64,000 nucleotides of DNA from Verrucomicrobiia bacterium (GTDB taxonomy: Bacteria > Verrucomicrobiota > Verrucomicrobiia > Verrucomicrobiales > Akkermansiaceae). Where the stretch lies: positions 1 to 64,000 of the forward strand of contig JAUIGV010000016.1 in the NCBI GenBank assembly GCA_030432565.1. Reading direction: 5' to 3'. The notes beneath the pieces are model-generated. The model had not been told where the DNA came from, ran no database searches, and was given only the letters and a program-made list of their open reading frames with translations. A program made the translations under genes and the position numbers. Below are positions 2,042 through 8,460 of this stretch, one piece after another. The first letter of the stretch is position 1. Every line of letters starts with the position of its first letter.

Positions 2042-2479
2042 ATGACTGCTGCTGATTTTTCAGATTGTTTATTGATCGCCGCCGACGGGAGTGGTGCGAA
2101 TTGGGACGAAGTGGAGCGGAGAATTGAGGCGCTGGGGCCGGGTGCAGACCGGAATCTCTTGTGGGGAGTGGCGGCCAAGAATTGGGTGAAGGCGCTGGCA
2201 TCGAAAACTCCGGGGCCGATGCAGGTGACAGAAACGATGCACTTCATGGCGATGACGATGTTCCCTGACAAGCTTCAGGGGAGGTTTGCGACCGGAATTG
2301 ATGAAATCCACGATGCAATCATGGCCTACCTCGGGCGGGCCGGAGTCTGCGAGCGGTGGGGAAAGTTGGTGGTCCTGGTCTGCCAAGTCTCCTACGAAGA
2401 TGGCGGCCAAGCGGCTTTGCAGAAGCTCTTTGGGGTGGGCCTTGAGGATCTCTTCCGGAGTTTTCTTGCTGAGTTCTAA
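2042..2479 (+). CDS. Hypothetical cytoplasmic protein, 145 residues
   Basis: No family was recognised. The protein begins MTAADFSDCLLIAADGSG and is mostly helical and soluble, with two tryptophan-containing helices and no signal peptide, membrane segment or metal-binding cluster. An in-frame TTG at 1994 would add 16 residues, but their composition looks non-coding, so the ATG is preferred. No strong ribosome binding site is visible. The stop overlaps by four bases with the stop of the convergent oxidoreductase gene. Codon composition resembles the neighbouring genes, which supports a real gene. Confidence 0.55.
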   Translation: MTAADFSDCLLIAADGSGANWDEVERRIEALGPGADRNLLWGVAAKNWVKALASKTPGPMQVTETMHFMAMTMFPDKLQGRFATGIDEIHDAIMAYLGRAGVCERWGKLVVLVCQVSYEDGGQAALQKLFGVGLEDLFRSFLAEF

Positions 2480-3630
2480 AGTTCAATCAGCCTACCGGTA
2501 TCGAGACTTCGGCGACCGGCTTCTAGAATGGCGGTGGTGTTTCGGGTCGTTTCAATGGTGGCGAGATTTTCGCGCTTCCCGAGGATGAAGTCGGCGATGC
2601 TTTGGTAACCGTAACTTGATTGCCCCGCAAAGCGACCGTTTGCGCCCGGAGTGTATCGATAGAAGAGTGGATTGGGTGCTTGATGCCCTCCGGCATCCGA
2701 GGCGAAGTCATACCCGCGGTGAGCTTGGTCGACCCGCACTTCGCCCGCGTGATGGAGGGCAAAGAAGCGTTGTTGGGAATGGACCTCGGCCTTCGCGGCA
2801 ATCCATGAGGCGGTGTAAACGGCAGTGCCTTTGGTCCCGGAGTTGTTCAACCAATCGACCATGAGGGTGATGGAATCTTCGGTGGGTAGGCCTTGGCTTT
2901 TGGCAACGCCGGTGGAGGCAGAAGCGATGACTGAAGTCGGGCGGGCAAGGCCTTCAAGAGTCCAGCAGTGGAAGTCGATATGGTGGGCGTTGAGGTAGTA
3001 GGAGATATCGGACGATTTTCCAGCCCACGCGCGGAACGAGTCGAGTTGGGATTTAGGTTGCGACATGTAACTGGAGAAGTAGGAAAAATCTCCGAGATTA
3101 CGCAGTTTTTCACGGGCATCCGAATAGATGGGGTCCCAGCGCTTGTGAACCTCCATGGCGATGGTGATTCCCTTCGTTCGTGAGACTGCGATAAGAGAGT
3201 CGTGTTCTGCGACCGTTTTAACGATGGGTTTGGCTACCAGCACATTGAGTCCCTTGCTTGCTGAGGCATGGGCCATTTCGTGGTGTAAGTCGTCGGGGGT
3301 GAAAATAAGGACGGCGTCACCAGGAGTGAGTTCCTGCAGGGCGGACTTCCACGCCCGGGGGTCGTGTTGGTCGTCGTCCGGAAAACTCCGAAAGGAGGTG
3401 TCGAGCCCGTAGCGTTTTGTAATGAGGTGATCAAAGTGCCCGCGGACGAGGGGGAATTTGGAGCCGTTGGATCCGGCCAGAATGATCTCGGAGATGAATC
3501 CCCGCTCACGGAGGTCGAAGAGGGTGAGAGCCACAACTCCGGCTCCCTTGTCGGAAGTGGACTCGGATCCGTTCACAAGTCCGGTGACGTATTCTCCGGT
3601 GCCAATTACGAGGATTTTGGGGGCGCTCAT
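2476..3630 (-). CDS. Gfo/Idh/MocA-family NAD(P)-dependent oxidoreductase
   Basis: 384 residues, the usual family length. The N-terminal Rossmann fold opens with ILVIGTGEYVTG. The family's EKP-like cofactor and active-site loop appears as VLVAKPIVKT near residues 131-140, and MEVHKRWDP near 160 continues the active-site region. The C-terminal half contains a putative catalytic His in YYLNAHHIDFH. Members oxidise or reduce sugars, inositols and related alcohols; the substrate cannot be told from sequence. It is the last gene of a minus-strand cluster, starting six bases after the pseudokinase stop, so co-transcription is likely. The N-terminus has an insertion after the first strand (GSESTSDKGAG), longer than the typical glycine-rich loop, which might alter dinucleotide binding. 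Confidence 0.8.
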   Translation of the reverse strand: MSAPKILVIGTGEYVTGLVNGSESTSDKGAGVVALTLFDLRERGFISEIILAGSNGSKFPLVRGHFDHLITKRYGLDTSFRSFPDDDQHDPRAWKSALQELTPGDAVLIFTPDDLHHEMAHASASKGLNVLVAKPIVKTVAEHDSLIAVSRTKGITIAMEVHKRWDPIYSDAREKLRNLGDFSYFSSYMSQPKSQLDSFRAWAGKSSDISYYLNAHHIDFHCWTLEGLARPTSVIASASTGVAKSQGLPTEDSITLMVDWLNNSGTKGTAVYTASWIAAKAEVHSQQRFFALHHAGEVRVDQAHRGYDFASDAGGHQAPNPLFYRYTPGANGRFAGQSSYGYQSIADFILGKRENLATIETTRNTTAILEAGRRSLDTGRLIEL

Positions 3631-3636
3631 GATGGT

Positions 3637-5109
3637 TTACTCGATGACCTTGATTTGCGATTTGCGCGTCAAAACGATTGAGATTCTGCTGCTGCCGGTA
3701 CTCTTGCGCACGCGTCCTTTGACCTCGATGGTCTTGCCGATCAAAGATTCAAGGTAGGCTTCGTCCAAGCCGGCCTCTGCTTGACTCTTGTCGACGCGGC
3801 CGGTGAATTCGGGGGGCTCGGGCTTGAACTGTAGGTAGAGGACTGTCCCTGGTTTGGATTTGGTGACTGCCCGGACCACGGCGCGAAGCGGGATGACTTG
3901 ACCTGCTTCGGCGAATTGCTTCCGAATTTGGGGTTCATCATCAAGGGTGTAGTATTCCTGAAGGAGGTAGCTGACGATGATGTCCTCGGAATCAACGATG
4001 CGTAGGACAGACGGCGAGGCGAAAAAGCCGCGCAGAGTGACCTTGTTCCGGAGGGCTGACTTGACTAGTTTTTCGGAACCCGCCGGAGGAACGGCGCGAA
4101 GCGCGGAGTCAGGAATGATCAGGCGGCCATTTTCATCGATCCCGTCGAGTGACGTCTCAAAGGTGATCCACCTGCCAATTTTGTGATCAAGTGAATAGGG
4201 ACTCGTGGGGTCGACTGTGGCGAACCCGGCGGCGTTTTTGGGGCGGGCGGTTGGTTCGAGCTCGGGGACTTCTTGAGCGATGGGTTCGATGACGACAACG
4301 GGCGGGATTGCCTTCGCTGTTGTTGGAGCGGTGACGGGCTCCGGAGTGCTTGCAAGAACGATGGGTTTTTCCCCGGCCGGGGTTTCGCGATTGGCAAGCT
4401 TCCACCCGAAGTAGCCAATCGCACCAAGTAAGAGAACGAGAAGGGGAAGGACTCTGAGAGAGGAAGAGCTGGTAGCCGAAGGAAGGGCTGTGACCGGCAC
4501 GGAAGGGGCCGGCGGTGCTTCGATCGCAGCGACCATGGGTGTCGAAGTGAGTCCGGCTTGGCGCCTGAGGTAGGTGGACAGGGCGTCATACTTCGCCTGA
4601 ACGTCGACAAGTTCGGCGGGATGAATCCCCTCGGCAAAGGCCGTAAACCATGAATGGTAGTCGATTGAAAAGGTATCGATGGCTTGCTCTCCCTCGCCGC
4701 AGATCACGATGGATCCCGGCGTGAAGGCGACTGTTCCGGCGACCGGGCCAAGGGCAGTGATGAGCGACCCGGCGTGCCCCTGAATTCGCAAACACTCTTC
4801 TTCGGTGAGATCGAAGTCGCGAACGCGGTCCGTGAGAAGAATGCCGTCCCACCAACGGGCTGCGATCCAGGGGAAGCCGTCAACAGGATCAAGGCCGCCG
4901 TCGACGACCGGGCGGAGGCAGTTGTGACTGAGCTGCATGAGCTGATCCAGCGCGTTCTCAAAGGTGCCACCTTTGAATTTTTTGAGGACATCATCCCCGT
5001 ATTTGAGACGGACGAGTGCAAGAGGCACCTGATCGCGTGTTGTTACGCGGTAAACGACGAGGTTCCCGGTCTGGTGAACGAGTTCCTCGATGTGATAGTC
5101 GGTCTGCAT
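3637..5109 (-). CDS. Membrane-anchored pseudokinase with C-terminal OB-like domain
   Basis: 490 residues from ATG 5109, which has GGAG eight bases upstream. A TTG 14 codons further up is less likely. Residues 1-170 resemble a eukaryotic-type Ser/Thr kinase. ALVRLKYG sits where VAIK should be, LSHNCLRPVVDGG where the HPNIV-type strand falls, and FPWIAARWWDGILLTD resembles the hinge and glycine stretch. The catalytic HRD...N and DFG positions are replaced (AFTPGSIVI and IDTFSI), so phosphotransfer is unlikely. A transmembrane helix follows (about 220-238, VLPLLVLLLGAIGYFGW), then a Pro/Thr-rich linker. The soluble C-terminal region ends in an OB-like segment (GKTIEVKGRVRKSTGSS). The first ATG overlaps the stop of the redoxin remnant (TGATG). 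The role is probably signalling or scaffolding at the inner membrane; this is inferred. Confidence 0.65.
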   Translation of the reverse strand: MQTDYHIEELVHQTGNLVVYRVTTRDQVPLALVRLKYGDDVLKKFKGGTFENALDQLMQLSHNCLRPVVDGGLDPVDGFPWIAARWWDGILLTDRVRDFDLTEEECLRIQGHAGSLITALGPVAGTVAFTPGSIVICGEGEQAIDTFSIDYHSWFTAFAEGIHPAELVDVQAKYDALSTYLRRQAGLTSTPMVAAIEAPPAPSVPVTALPSATSSSSLRVLPLLVLLLGAIGYFGWKLANRETPAGEKPIVLASTPEPVTAPTTAKAIPPVVVIEPIAQEVPELEPTARPKNAAGFATVDPTSPYSLDHKIGRWITFETSLDGIDENGRLIIPDSALRAVPPAGSEKLVKSALRNKVTLRGFFASPSVLRIVDSEDIIVSYLLQEYYTLDDEPQIRKQFAEAGQVIPLRAVVRAVTKSKPGTVLYLQFKPEPPEFTGRVDKSQAEAGLDEAYLESLIGKTIEVKGRVRKSTGSSRISIVLTRKSQIKVIE

Positions 5110-5328
5110 CAAAGGTCTCCGGAGGCTGACCGACCCGGCGGGTGAAGCCAAACGGAAAAGTTGGTGACCTTGGTAGCGGGTGGTTTCATCGGGACGAGGC
5201 TACCGTTGCCGTCGGACAAGACCTCAAAGAGCCGGATTCCACGGGCCTGGAATTTTTGATGAAGCCTGATTCAGAGCGGGAAGATCGCTGCGGGCGATGG
5301 GGCACCCGGTGGCGAGGAAGAGCTTCAA
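5109..5328 (-). pseudogene. Frameshifted fragment of a TlpA/AhpC-like redoxin
   Basis: In one frame (5328-5224) the sequence reads LKLFLATGCPIARSDLPALNQ and then hits a stop. In another frame, joined near 5252-5263 at a run of five A/T bases, it continues HQKFQARGIRLFEVLSDGNG and runs to a stop at 5111-5109. Together these reproduce the thioredoxin-fold strand, peroxidatic-type Cys loop, helix and next strand seen in planctomycete/verrucomicrobial redoxins. About 70 residues remain of a fold that needs at least 130. The 5' part abuts the stop of the TPR gene and the 3' stop overlaps the ATG of the pseudokinase (TGATG). It is either a decayed, internally deleted gene or a short gene broken by a sequencing error. 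The missing C-terminal half argues for decay. Confidence 0.6.
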
Positions 5329-6221
5329 TTGTCAGCAAGGGTGTCGCTGAGGAGGCGATAGGCGTCGGTGGAGTAGCCTGAATTGATGAGAGTTTCGAGG
5401 TCGCGTTTGGCAAGAGCCTTGTTTCCCATAAGGGCGTGGATGAGGCCACGGTCGGCGATGAGGGTGAGGTCGGGGCGCTCCGGATTGATACGCGGAGTGA
5501 TTTCGACGAGGGCGGCGCGCAGGTCGGCTTGGGCGGATTTCTTGTTCTTGAGAATCAGGAAAGCGCGGGCCCGGCGGATGAGCCAGGATGAGCGGAAGCG
5601 GGAGGAGGTGAGCTCTTTCTGGATAATGGGGAGGACAGTTTCGGTTTGTCCGGCGGTGAGGGCGGCATCGATCCAATTATTGCGAACGACGATGGATTTC
5701 GTGCGGTTCGCGGATTTTTTCAGGACGGTGCTTGCCTCCCCGGGACGTTGCAAGTCGAGGAGTAATCCGGCGTGGAAGAGGTCGAGCGCGGGATCATCGT
5801 TGGGCCGCATGAGATGGAGGGCGTCGCAGAGTGAGCAGGCTTTTTCGAGTTGCCCAAGCTGCGCGGTGTAGTGGGTGAGGAGGAAATGCGCCTCAAATTT
5901 CTCTTCTTTGGTCTTTGCGAACTGCTGGTATCGCGAAATGAGGGGAGGTGCCTTCTTATCGGTGCCGAAAAGCTGAACCAGAGCGACGAGAGCCCGTCGG
6001 TTTTCGGGCTCCAGTTTTAGAGCGGATTCGAGGTCCTCGATGGCGTGGACCTTCTCCTGGAGCGCGCGAAATTCGGTCGCGCGCTGGTAGTAGAGATCGG
6101 CGGTGGGCTGGACCTCGATCTTCGCGGTCAGCGCCTTGATCGTCTCGGAAACGTCATTGTGCCCGCATGCCAGAGCGGGTGCAAAGATGAGAATGAGCGA
6201 AAGAAGACGCGGGCGGAGCAT
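5325..6221 (-). CDS. Exported TPR protein
   Basis: 298 residues. A signal peptide (LLSLILIFAPALACG) is followed by Cys in a loose lipobox-like context (ALAC), so it may be a lipoprotein facing the periplasm. The rest is helical, with recognisable tetratricopeptide repeats: ADLYYQRATEFRALQEKVHAIEDLESALKL near residues 40-70, DLFHAGLLLDLQRPGEA near 150, and a last repeat around 260-285 (DRGLIHALMGNKALAKRDLE). Such proteins act as binding scaffolds. It starts two bases after the stop of the phosphatase gene, and its stop touches the redoxin remnant, so the genes probably form one transcript. No specific partner can be named. Confidence 0.7.
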   Translation of the reverse strand: MLRPRLLSLILIFAPALACGHNDVSETIKALTAKIEVQPTADLYYQRATEFRALQEKVHAIEDLESALKLEPENRRALVALVQLFGTDKKAPPLISRYQQFAKTKEEKFEAHFLLTHYTAQLGQLEKACSLCDALHLMRPNDDPALDLFHAGLLLDLQRPGEASTVLKKSANRTKSIVVRNNWIDAALTAGQTETVLPIIQKELTSSRFRSSWLIRRARAFLILKNKKSAQADLRAALVEITPRINPERPDLTLIADRGLIHALMGNKALAKRDLETLINSGYSTDAYRLLSDTLADN

Positions 6222-6223
6222 GA

Positions 6224-8161
6224 CTATTTCGCGAGGAGAAGTCTGGGGTGCAGGGTGAAGTCGGAACTGTTGATGTTCACGTTGTGCCCTTCGATGGCGA
6301 GGACGTTTTTTTGCCCCGGCTTAAGGATCTTCGAGATTCCTTTGAGCGGGAAGTATTCAAAGCCCTTGGCGTCGTGGTTGGTGAAGCCATCGGCCTCTTT
6401 ACCCTGTTTCTTGTCAACTCCCTGGCGGTGGACTTCGTGCCCGTTGAGATAGGCGATGAAGGCGTCGTCGTATGAGACGTGAAGACCAAGTTTGTCCAGG
6501 TTGGCATTCTTGGGGAGTTGGAACTCCTTGCGGATGTAAACGGTGGTGAACTTGCCACGCATGTTGATCTCGGTGGTGTCATCGTTGTCGCCGTAACCGA
6601 AACCAGCTTTGCCGGTTTTCCAAGCGGAGATGTCATAGTCCGGAGCGGCCCAGTCGGTGATATCACCCGATGGATGTGAACCGGCGAGGTAGGACCAGGT
6701 TTCGTTTTTGTCGATGATGACGGTGGCGTTTCGCGGAGGTTTTGGACCGGCTTGTGGTTGTGCACGGCGCAGAGGTTCCGGCTGCCAGGGGTTTTCGACG
6801 ACGGTGTGGGTGACTTCGCCGCTCTTTTTGATGGCGAAGGTGTCGCGAATGACGCCGTTGGAATTGAGCATCTCTCCTTTGATGGTGTCGTCGGCGATGG
6901 TGATGAGGCACGAGCCGTGGTCGAGGATGATTTTGCGCATCACGGGGTGGGTGCCCGACCGTCGGTTGGCGGTGCCGCCGTGGCCGGTGACGATGGAGAC
7001 GTGGCCGTTGTTTGGTTTCAGGCCTTCGCTTTTCCGGTAGGCTCCGTCGCCCGCGGGATCGCCGTCGCCATCATCGAGGATCACTCCCTTGGCGACCGAG
7101 GGTGTTTGATAGGCTCCGTCGATGAGCATGGAGCGCTCGTAGATGTGGGAGTGGCCGGTGAAGACAAGGTCAACGCCACCGCTTTCGAGGATGGGCATGA
7201 TGTGTTCGCGCATCTCGACGAGCTGGCCTTCGCGATCGGAATCGTGAGAGCCTTTGGTGTAGGGGGGATGGTGGAAGAAGGCGATGAGGAATTCCGCTTT
7301 GGTTTTTTCCAGATCGGCCTTGAGCCACTGGGCCATTTCGCCGGTGGGGCGACGATCAAGGTCATGGGAGTCGAGGCAGATGAAGTGGACCTTGCCCCAG
7401 TCGAAGGAGTAGAAGGCCTCCTTGCCGGACGGGAGTCCGCCGGCCTCGGCTTTGGTGGGGCTGATGAAGGCGTCGTAGAATGGGCCGATGCCGGTTGCTC
7501 CCTTGGAAGTGCGCCCTTCGTGGTTGCCCATGGATCCCCAGCAAACGGTGTTGCGGAGGGTGGGCTCATACATTTTGAAGAAGCGATCGCTGAATTCCTT
7601 GTTGGTTCCGGAGCCGTAGGCCATGTCGCCGACGTGAAGGTAGAGATCGATGGGTCGGCCGTTTTTGGCGGTGTGCTCGACCATGGCGGTGTGGACTTGC
7701 GCCTGTGCCTTGCCGCCGGTGCCGGAGTCACCCACAACCCAGAAATAAACCGGGGTATCGGAACCCGGGACAGGGTTGGTTTTGAAACGATAGGATGAAT
7801 CGGCAGGAGTCAGACGCTTGTCCCCGTCATAAATCGCGTAGTAGTAGCTGGTGAGTGGCTTGAGGCCGGTCACGGTGGCTTCGAATTGGCGTGTATCGAC
7901 CGGGGCGTCCTTGAAAATAGGATTTTCCTCACCGAGCGACGGGTGTTTCCGGGTGATGATTTGCTCGGCAGGAACTTCCGATGACAAGTCATCCACGGTT
8001 GTGCCAAAAACGACTTTTGGTGTCATCTCGTTGCGAGAACGCCAAACGACGCGAATGGAGTTGTCGGTTGCCAGCTGAACGTAGGGCTGGCGGGAGAACT
8101 CCTCGACGATTGCGGAGGAGGCGATGAGGGAGCTAAGAAAGAGGAAAACGAGGCTTTTCAT
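6224..8161 (-). CDS. Exported purple-acid-phosphatase-like metallophosphoesterase
   Basis: 645 residues from ATG 8161, which gives a clean signal peptide; an upstream TTG would spoil it. Residues 20-130 form the fibronectin-like N-terminal domain of purple acid phosphatases. The catalytic domain has the full metal-ligand series: GDSGTG (144-149), GDMAYG (178-183), GNHEGR (212-217), HHPP (297-300) and GHSHIYE (336-342), with a second-sphere DSH in between. Residues about 484-645 form a separate jelly-roll-like module that also occurs in two other exported proteins in this window. It should hydrolyse phosphomonoesters or diesters outside the inner membrane. It is the first gene of the minus-strand cluster and is divergent from a small lipoprotein gene. 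Confidence 0.85.
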   Translation of the reverse strand: MKSLVFLFLSSLIASSAIVEEFSRQPYVQLATDNSIRVVWRSRNEMTPKVVFGTTVDDLSSEVPAEQIITRKHPSLGEENPIFKDAPVDTRQFEATVTGLKPLTSYYYAIYDGDKRLTPADSSYRFKTNPVPGSDTPVYFWVVGDSGTGGKAQAQVHTAMVEHTAKNGRPIDLYLHVGDMAYGSGTNKEFSDRFFKMYEPTLRNTVCWGSMGNHEGRTSKGATGIGPFYDAFISPTKAEAGGLPSGKEAFYSFDWGKVHFICLDSHDLDRRPTGEMAQWLKADLEKTKAEFLIAFFHHPPYTKGSHDSDREGQLVEMREHIMPILESGGVDLVFTGHSHIYERSMLIDGAYQTPSVAKGVILDDGDGDPAGDGAYRKSEGLKPNNGHVSIVTGHGGTANRRSGTHPVMRKIILDHGSCLITIADDTIKGEMLNSNGVIRDTFAIKKSGEVTHTVVENPWQPEPLRRAQPQAGPKPPRNATVIIDKNETWSYLAGSHPSGDITDWAAPDYDISAWKTGKAGFGYGDNDDTTEINMRGKFTTVYIRKEFQLPKNANLDKLGLHVSYDDAFIAYLNGHEVHRQGVDKKQGKEADGFTNHDAKGFEYFPLKGISKILKPGQKNVLAIEGHNVNINSSDFTLHPRLLLAK

Positions 8162-8256
8162 GTGCGAGGGATGGGACGTTGAGAGATTTTCAGGATTTCG
8201 CAACCCAGATTGTAAGTTTGACGGAAGAGTAGGGACGGGAGTATTCAGAGGGTCCT

Positions 8257-8460
8257 ATGAAACTGTTATTGCTCCCGCTCCTCTTGATTGGCTCGTTGGT
8301 CCTTAGCTCTTGCGGCTTGGTTCGTTCAGCTACGCAACTTCCGATCCGAACCTTGCAGAGTGTTGGGAGAGCGGTCGGTCTTGGCCTTGAGCAGACCGAG
8401 GTTCAAGGGGAGGAGGAAGCTGCGAAGCCAATCAAATGGGAGTCTGTCCGGGGGGATTGA
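8257..8460 (+). CDS. Small lipoprotein, 67 residues
   Basis: The protein begins MKLLLLPLLLIGSLVLSSCG, a textbook lipoprotein signal with lipobox LSSC, so the mature protein is about 49 residues attached at Cys19. The mature part has one amphipathic stretch and an acidic centre (EEEAA). AGAGGG lies just upstream of the ATG and serves as ribosome binding site. It is divergent from the phosphatase gene. No family was recognised; a short envelope lipoprotein of entericidin-like size is one possibility, without specific support. Confidence 0.65.
   Translation: MKLLLLPLLLIGSLVLSSCGLVRSATQLPIRTLQSVGRAVGLGLEQTEVQGEEEAAKPIKWESVRGD

Follow-up and report, generated by a model that had tools for sequence, protein, structure and literature searches.

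The closest described counterparts of the element analyzed here are highly degraded intergenic pseudogenes, of which, in the Pseudofinder paper, 238 are given for a Shewanella genome and 305 for a Sodalis genome (PMC9336565). In the window, i.e. the whole 64-kb stretch of DNA that was analyzed, a short interval between the genes for a TPR-repeat protein and a pseudokinase-like protein appears to be an element of this kind. We read it as a decaying, untranslated remnant (scrap) of a redoxin gene at a rearrangement junction, and thus as an ordinary gene fossil, with a probability of roughly 0.87. The features of the locus are listed below, with G000 denoting the genome of the window's species and G003 the nearest genome found.

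5325..6221, minus strand: gene for a TPR-repeat protein of 298 amino acids with Pfam TPR matches; its block ends here
5266..5325, minus strand: first part of the redoxin remnant (frame A), with the Cys loop T-G-C-P-I-A-R; 20.4 bits
5265 (approximate place), minus strand: frame break, one base surplus for the redoxin reading, common to G003
5208..5264, minus strand: second part of the redoxin remnant (frame B), helix and next strand; 11.2 bits
5172..5207, minus strand: remainder of the interposed stretch, with no clear homology, outside both the profile match and the block common to four relatives
5110..5171, minus strand: pseudokinase leader, from the alignment of 10 upstream regions, with the conserved CG.TTGGCTTC at 5144-5154
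5107..5111, minus strand: TGATG, in which the frame-B stop happens to overlap the pseudokinase start codon
3640..5109, minus strand: pseudokinase-like protein of 490 amino acids with a likely membrane helix

Frame A (minus strand, 5331-5227) reads QLKLFLATGCPIARSDLPALNQ... and frame B (minus strand, 5270-5112) reads IRLHQKFQARGIRLFEVLSDGNG..., with an overlap of 44 bases between them. A TTG in frame A overlaps the stop of the TPR gene, and the frame-B TGA (5111-5109) shares position 5109 with the ATG (5109-5107) of the gene that follows. Sequence profile analysis was carried out with 22 redoxins, picked by their C-P-I/V motif out of 56 collected hit frames. Frames A and B emerged as the best and second-best of all six-frame segments in the 64-kb window, with 20.4 and 11.2 bits, the third segment scoring 4.1 bits and the best among 30 dinucleotide-shuffled windows 9.1 bits. 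The joined A+B reading attains 40.8 bits in this test, which is mildly circular in that the training redoxins were found with the joined query and the scrap itself fits the C-P-I/V selection motif. Independent support comes from the match of the joined reading to the Pfam family PF00578 (AhpC-TSA; E=0.0019, 18.6 bits, with the curated cut-off of 26 not reached) and from a 29-bp, 90% identical nucleotide match between the scrap and an open redoxin gene in locus L094. Frame B on its own recovered no Pfam match, and the scrap had no NCBIfam match at E 0.1. Searched against PDB sequences, the joined 42 residues yielded five matches, the best with E=0.087 and none of them significant, all named as thiol-disulfide or redoxin proteins. 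Frame A on its own recovered only Arb1 from Pfam (E=0.069), which was taken as chance.

The profile match spans columns 6-43 of 85 and includes, in order, the strand of the Cys loop, the first helix and the next strand, the frame-B portion stopping after L-S-D-G. Columns 44-85 are unmatched, and both the N-terminal part and the C-terminal half of the thioredoxin fold are missing, the remnant being hemmed in by the TPR stop on one side and the pseudokinase leader on the other. The 36 bases at 5172..5207 may represent further degraded redoxin. An earlier, sequence-only reading of the locus had proposed a remnant of a thioredoxin-fold redoxin in two rejoining frames, and this is borne out: the two segments score 20.4 and 11.2 bits, keep their order and lie one base out of frame, and one base near 5265 has to be skipped for the redoxin reading to continue from A into B. 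It had also named a failed redoxin search with the joined frames as evidence against itself, and the search did return a match, the PF00578 hit below its curated cut-off. Its estimate of about 70 surviving residues was too high, only about 38-40 being redoxin-like and the last 20 or so being the pseudokinase leader read in frame B.

Comparison with G003, in which the TPR and pseudokinase genes are respectively 98% and 93% identical to those of the window, bears on the state of the remnant. There is no single open reading frame for it in either genome: G003 carries the same scrap (its frame-B segment scoring 10.1 bits) with the same frame break, which therefore is not a sequencing error. The two genomes differ at 8 of 156 bases in the scrap and at none of 62 in the leader, while the divergence at four-fold sites is 4.2% for the TPR gene and 5.4% for the phosphatase gene. 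This suggests, though eight changes are no proof, that the scrap changes at a neutral-like rate, close to the four-fold rate of its neighbours. By codon positions 1, 2 and 3 the differences number 2, 2 and 1 in the frame-A part and 0, 1 and 2 in the frame-B part of this very short remnant. The Cys of the loop is kept in both genomes. The A-run near the junction is CAAAAATT in the window versus CAAGAATT in G003, so that the A-rich stretch is not kept and, going by the generally known appearance of programmed-frameshift slippery sites, no conserved one is present at the frame change. As a separate observation, the four-fold divergence from G003 climbs stepwise over 2479-8203 (phosphatase 5.4%, TPR 4.2%, pseudokinase 11.4%, oxidoreductase 34.6%), as if there were a recombination boundary near the pseudokinase and oxidoreductase genes.

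The TPR gene has matches in 33 of 58 genomes. For the pseudokinase-like protein the figures are 23 of 24 genomes within its own genus and none of 14 others. For the analysis of gene neighborhoods, 30 of the 35 TPR matches were scanned with up to 1.5 kb on each side (less at contig ends), along with 20 pseudokinase loci, 8 longer regions and 7 further loci that repeat genomes already covered and hence add no independent counts. A redoxin segment of at least 7 bits was recovered only in G000 and G003; the remaining 28 TPR loci (of 30) and 18 pseudokinase loci (of 20) lack one at that score. A full-length redoxin at this place in relatives, a check proposed by the sequence-only reading, was likewise found in none of the 30 TPR and 20 pseudokinase loci. 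Downstream of the TPR gene, motif-based detection placed ispH in 13 of the 30 TPR loci; in G000 and G003 ispH is on other contigs. After the TPR stop only G003 agrees with the window among the 18 loci displayed. Approaching from the other side, the window matches the DNA of G014, G017, G020 and G023 only as far as 5171-5172, and that of G004 and G021 as far as 5161-5162. These ends, taken with the disagreement after the TPR gene, indicate that 5172-5325 is interposed between two blocks that lie apart in the relatives compared. In G014, G017, G020 and G023 the pseudokinase gene is preceded by one gene, with a similar end lying further upstream in G004. We take this gene to encode a sulfatase-like protein; its best matches in G000 and G003 are only 46% identical, so an ortholog seems to be absent from both. 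No reciprocal junction could be read in G000 or G003. Two irregularities were noted among the relatives: the TPR homolog of G004 (L032) contains one in-frame TGA, and in L027 (G015) the ispH frame after the TPR gene appears broken, possibly by an assembly error.

The region between the interposed stretch and the pseudokinase gene is of a different character. Alignment of the upstream regions of 10 of the 20 pseudokinase loci, namely those that look alike upstream and of which 8 are without redoxin, showed CG.TTGGCTTC in all of them, along with other invariant positions between it and the ATG. Over all 20 loci the exact motif is present in the same 10, at a nearly constant distance of 43-47 bp before the gene; in the window it lies 35-45 bp before the ATG. 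The remaining 10 loci have at least three mismatches to it and are mostly the more distant ones, with G013 and G019 also among them; by sequence, the conserved leader thus appears to be a feature of the closer pseudokinase orthologs only. The last 62 bp before the ATG are conserved in the 8 orthologs lacking the redoxin, and the frame-B stop therefore belongs to the pseudokinase leader, its overlap with the ATG being accidental rather than a coupling. Indeed TGATG itself recurs in 5 of these 8, so the overlap neither depends on an upstream gene nor is kept with one, and the earlier proposal that it is a surviving mark of coupling is not supported. A promoter scan of 4900-8400 returned no sigma-70-like site, for which reason a promoter in the leader is something that we infer. 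The motif with one mismatch allowed is not enriched in the window (10 occurrences versus 6.7 expected); it may constitute an unusual promoter or operator.

The protein encoded downstream of this leader recovered no Pfam or NCBIfam match. Its AlphaFold model (mean pLDDT 77.2, pTM 0.42) has a kinase fold in the N-terminal part (best Foldseek E 2.9e-7), a likely membrane helix at 221-239 and a beta-rich C-terminal part, with 5uv4 giving the highest Z in VIA-align (Z 15.3, rmsd 3.0, 178 aligned). Neither HRD nor DFG is present in any of the 20 pseudokinase proteins, the places of these motifs being read by eye, and an Arg in the third strand is invariant in all 20 aligned sequences. We take this Arg to stand where a Lys is expected, and the places of the HRD and DFG motifs are similarly assumed. 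The name pseudokinase, given to this protein in the sequence-only reading, thus looks right as far as the model goes.

An origin of the scrap was sought within the order and in the two genomes themselves. Besides G000 and G003, tblastn recovered matches at E<=0.005 in 41 of 286 genomes of the order, and among those listed of the 56 best hit frames that were aligned, nearly every one belongs to a redoxin or a TlpA-like thiol protein; L070 clearly does not. The best match of the scrap is a TlpA-like protein with a W-C-P-P-C motif, which leaves the redoxin subfamily uncertain; redoxins with C-P-I-A are also among the best, and the sequence of the Cys loop would favour these. A search of G000 and G003 for the severed other half gave six matches, none of them fitting: all are in long open frames of 234 to 598 amino acids, and five look like complete thiol proteins. 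L133, considered as the severed half, was set aside as the thioredoxin-like end of another protein. The redoxins that the scrap recovered in G000 share 31 and 36% identity with it, and no intact source gene was found. Judging from these sequences, that gene would have been lost, have diverged, or have come from outside.

These observations are best accommodated by a rearrangement in a recent ancestor of the window's species and G003, which would have joined a block with the phosphatase and TPR genes to one with the pseudokinase and oxidoreductase genes. The approximately 155 bp between the blocks (5172-5325) contain an interior piece of a redoxin gene that has lost both ends and is frameshifted; this piece would be non-coding, decay in a neutral-like manner and give no product. 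The pseudokinase would be read from its own conserved leader, the TGATG overlap probably being accidental. Counted against this explanation are the lack of an intact redoxin or a reciprocal junction among the sequences searched, the unmet curated cut-offs and the absence of the exact leader motif in 10 of the 20 loci. Alternatively, an intact redoxin gene might have stood in an operon between the TPR and pseudokinase genes and been reduced by an internal deletion and a frameshift, in line with the earlier suggestion that the cluster once held a full redox protein. The position of the scrap between both genes on their strand and the frame-A TTG overlapping the TPR stop fit such an origin, which is nevertheless unlikely, given that outside G000 and G003 neither the TPR loci (28 of 30) nor the pseudokinase loci (18 of 20) show a redoxin segment, that a single internal deletion is insufficient where both ends of the domain are gone, and that the redoxin did not supply the 3' stop. 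It is still conceivable that the direct ancestor of G000 and G003 had a full redoxin gene here.

A product of the locus is harder to sustain. The sequence-only reading had also offered a putative very short Cys protein, for which ribosomes would have to shift from frame A into frame B and whose translation would be coupled to that of the pseudokinase. In its favour one could cite the Cys kept in both species, the 44-base overlap of the frames and the TGATG. Against it, translation would have to begin at a TTG, the window and G003 differ in their A-run (CAAAAATT versus CAAGAATT) and diverge in a neutral-like way, such a protein would end in residues taken from the pseudokinase leader, and the arrangement is found in only two genomes; this makes it very improbable. 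More doubtful still is a putative nascent small Cys protein, frameshift-joined from A and B, which would have captured the leader as its C-terminus and would be coupled to the pseudokinase and modulate it. Finally, scores below the curated cut-offs and the best PDB E-value of 0.087 might prompt the view that the similarity is due to chance, or else that a real gene was broken by a sequencing error. This has next to no likelihood, as two neighbouring frames, correctly ordered and phased, each score above the best of the 30 shuffles and a second genome has the same break.

Searches of the literature found nothing on redoxin pseudogenes in Verrucomicrobia, on a redoxin domain with cytochrome c in Planctomycetes or, in a narrow search, on gene fragments at rearrangement breakpoints. 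The scrap resembles the C-P-I-A-N/R redoxins of the AhpC/TSA type in the same order (L055, L057, L058, L093, L096 and L099), to which it aligns over about 38 columns that surround the Cys loop. Related larger proteins in L053, L054 and L056 combine the redoxin with further parts, which are presumably c-type cytochrome-like. Those redoxins are encoded in open frames of about 180-200 or about 600-720 amino acids and have both an extension at the N-terminus and a C-terminal half, all of which are missing in the scrap.

Taken alone the scrap means little, as it adds one more gene fossil to a class that is numerous in other bacterial genomes (PMC9336565). The locus does carry a caution: an overlap of stop and start codons can mimic operon coupling when the stop sits in a leader conserved ahead of the downstream gene, and a single alignment of relatives is enough to decide such a case. 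The scrap, a truncated and frame-broken relative of a known protein, is what is meant by a gene remnant. In being a disrupted gene in an otherwise compact genome it is comparable to the bacterial pseudogenes en route to deletion of PMC2916853, although these are from Salmonella and also include younger and longer ones. It is closer to the intergenic remnants of the Pseudofinder type (PMC9336565), with which it shares six-frame similarity to a known protein, truncation, a broken frame and a position between intact genes. It differs from them in lying at the joint of two gene blocks and in abutting a conserved leader that mimics coupling.
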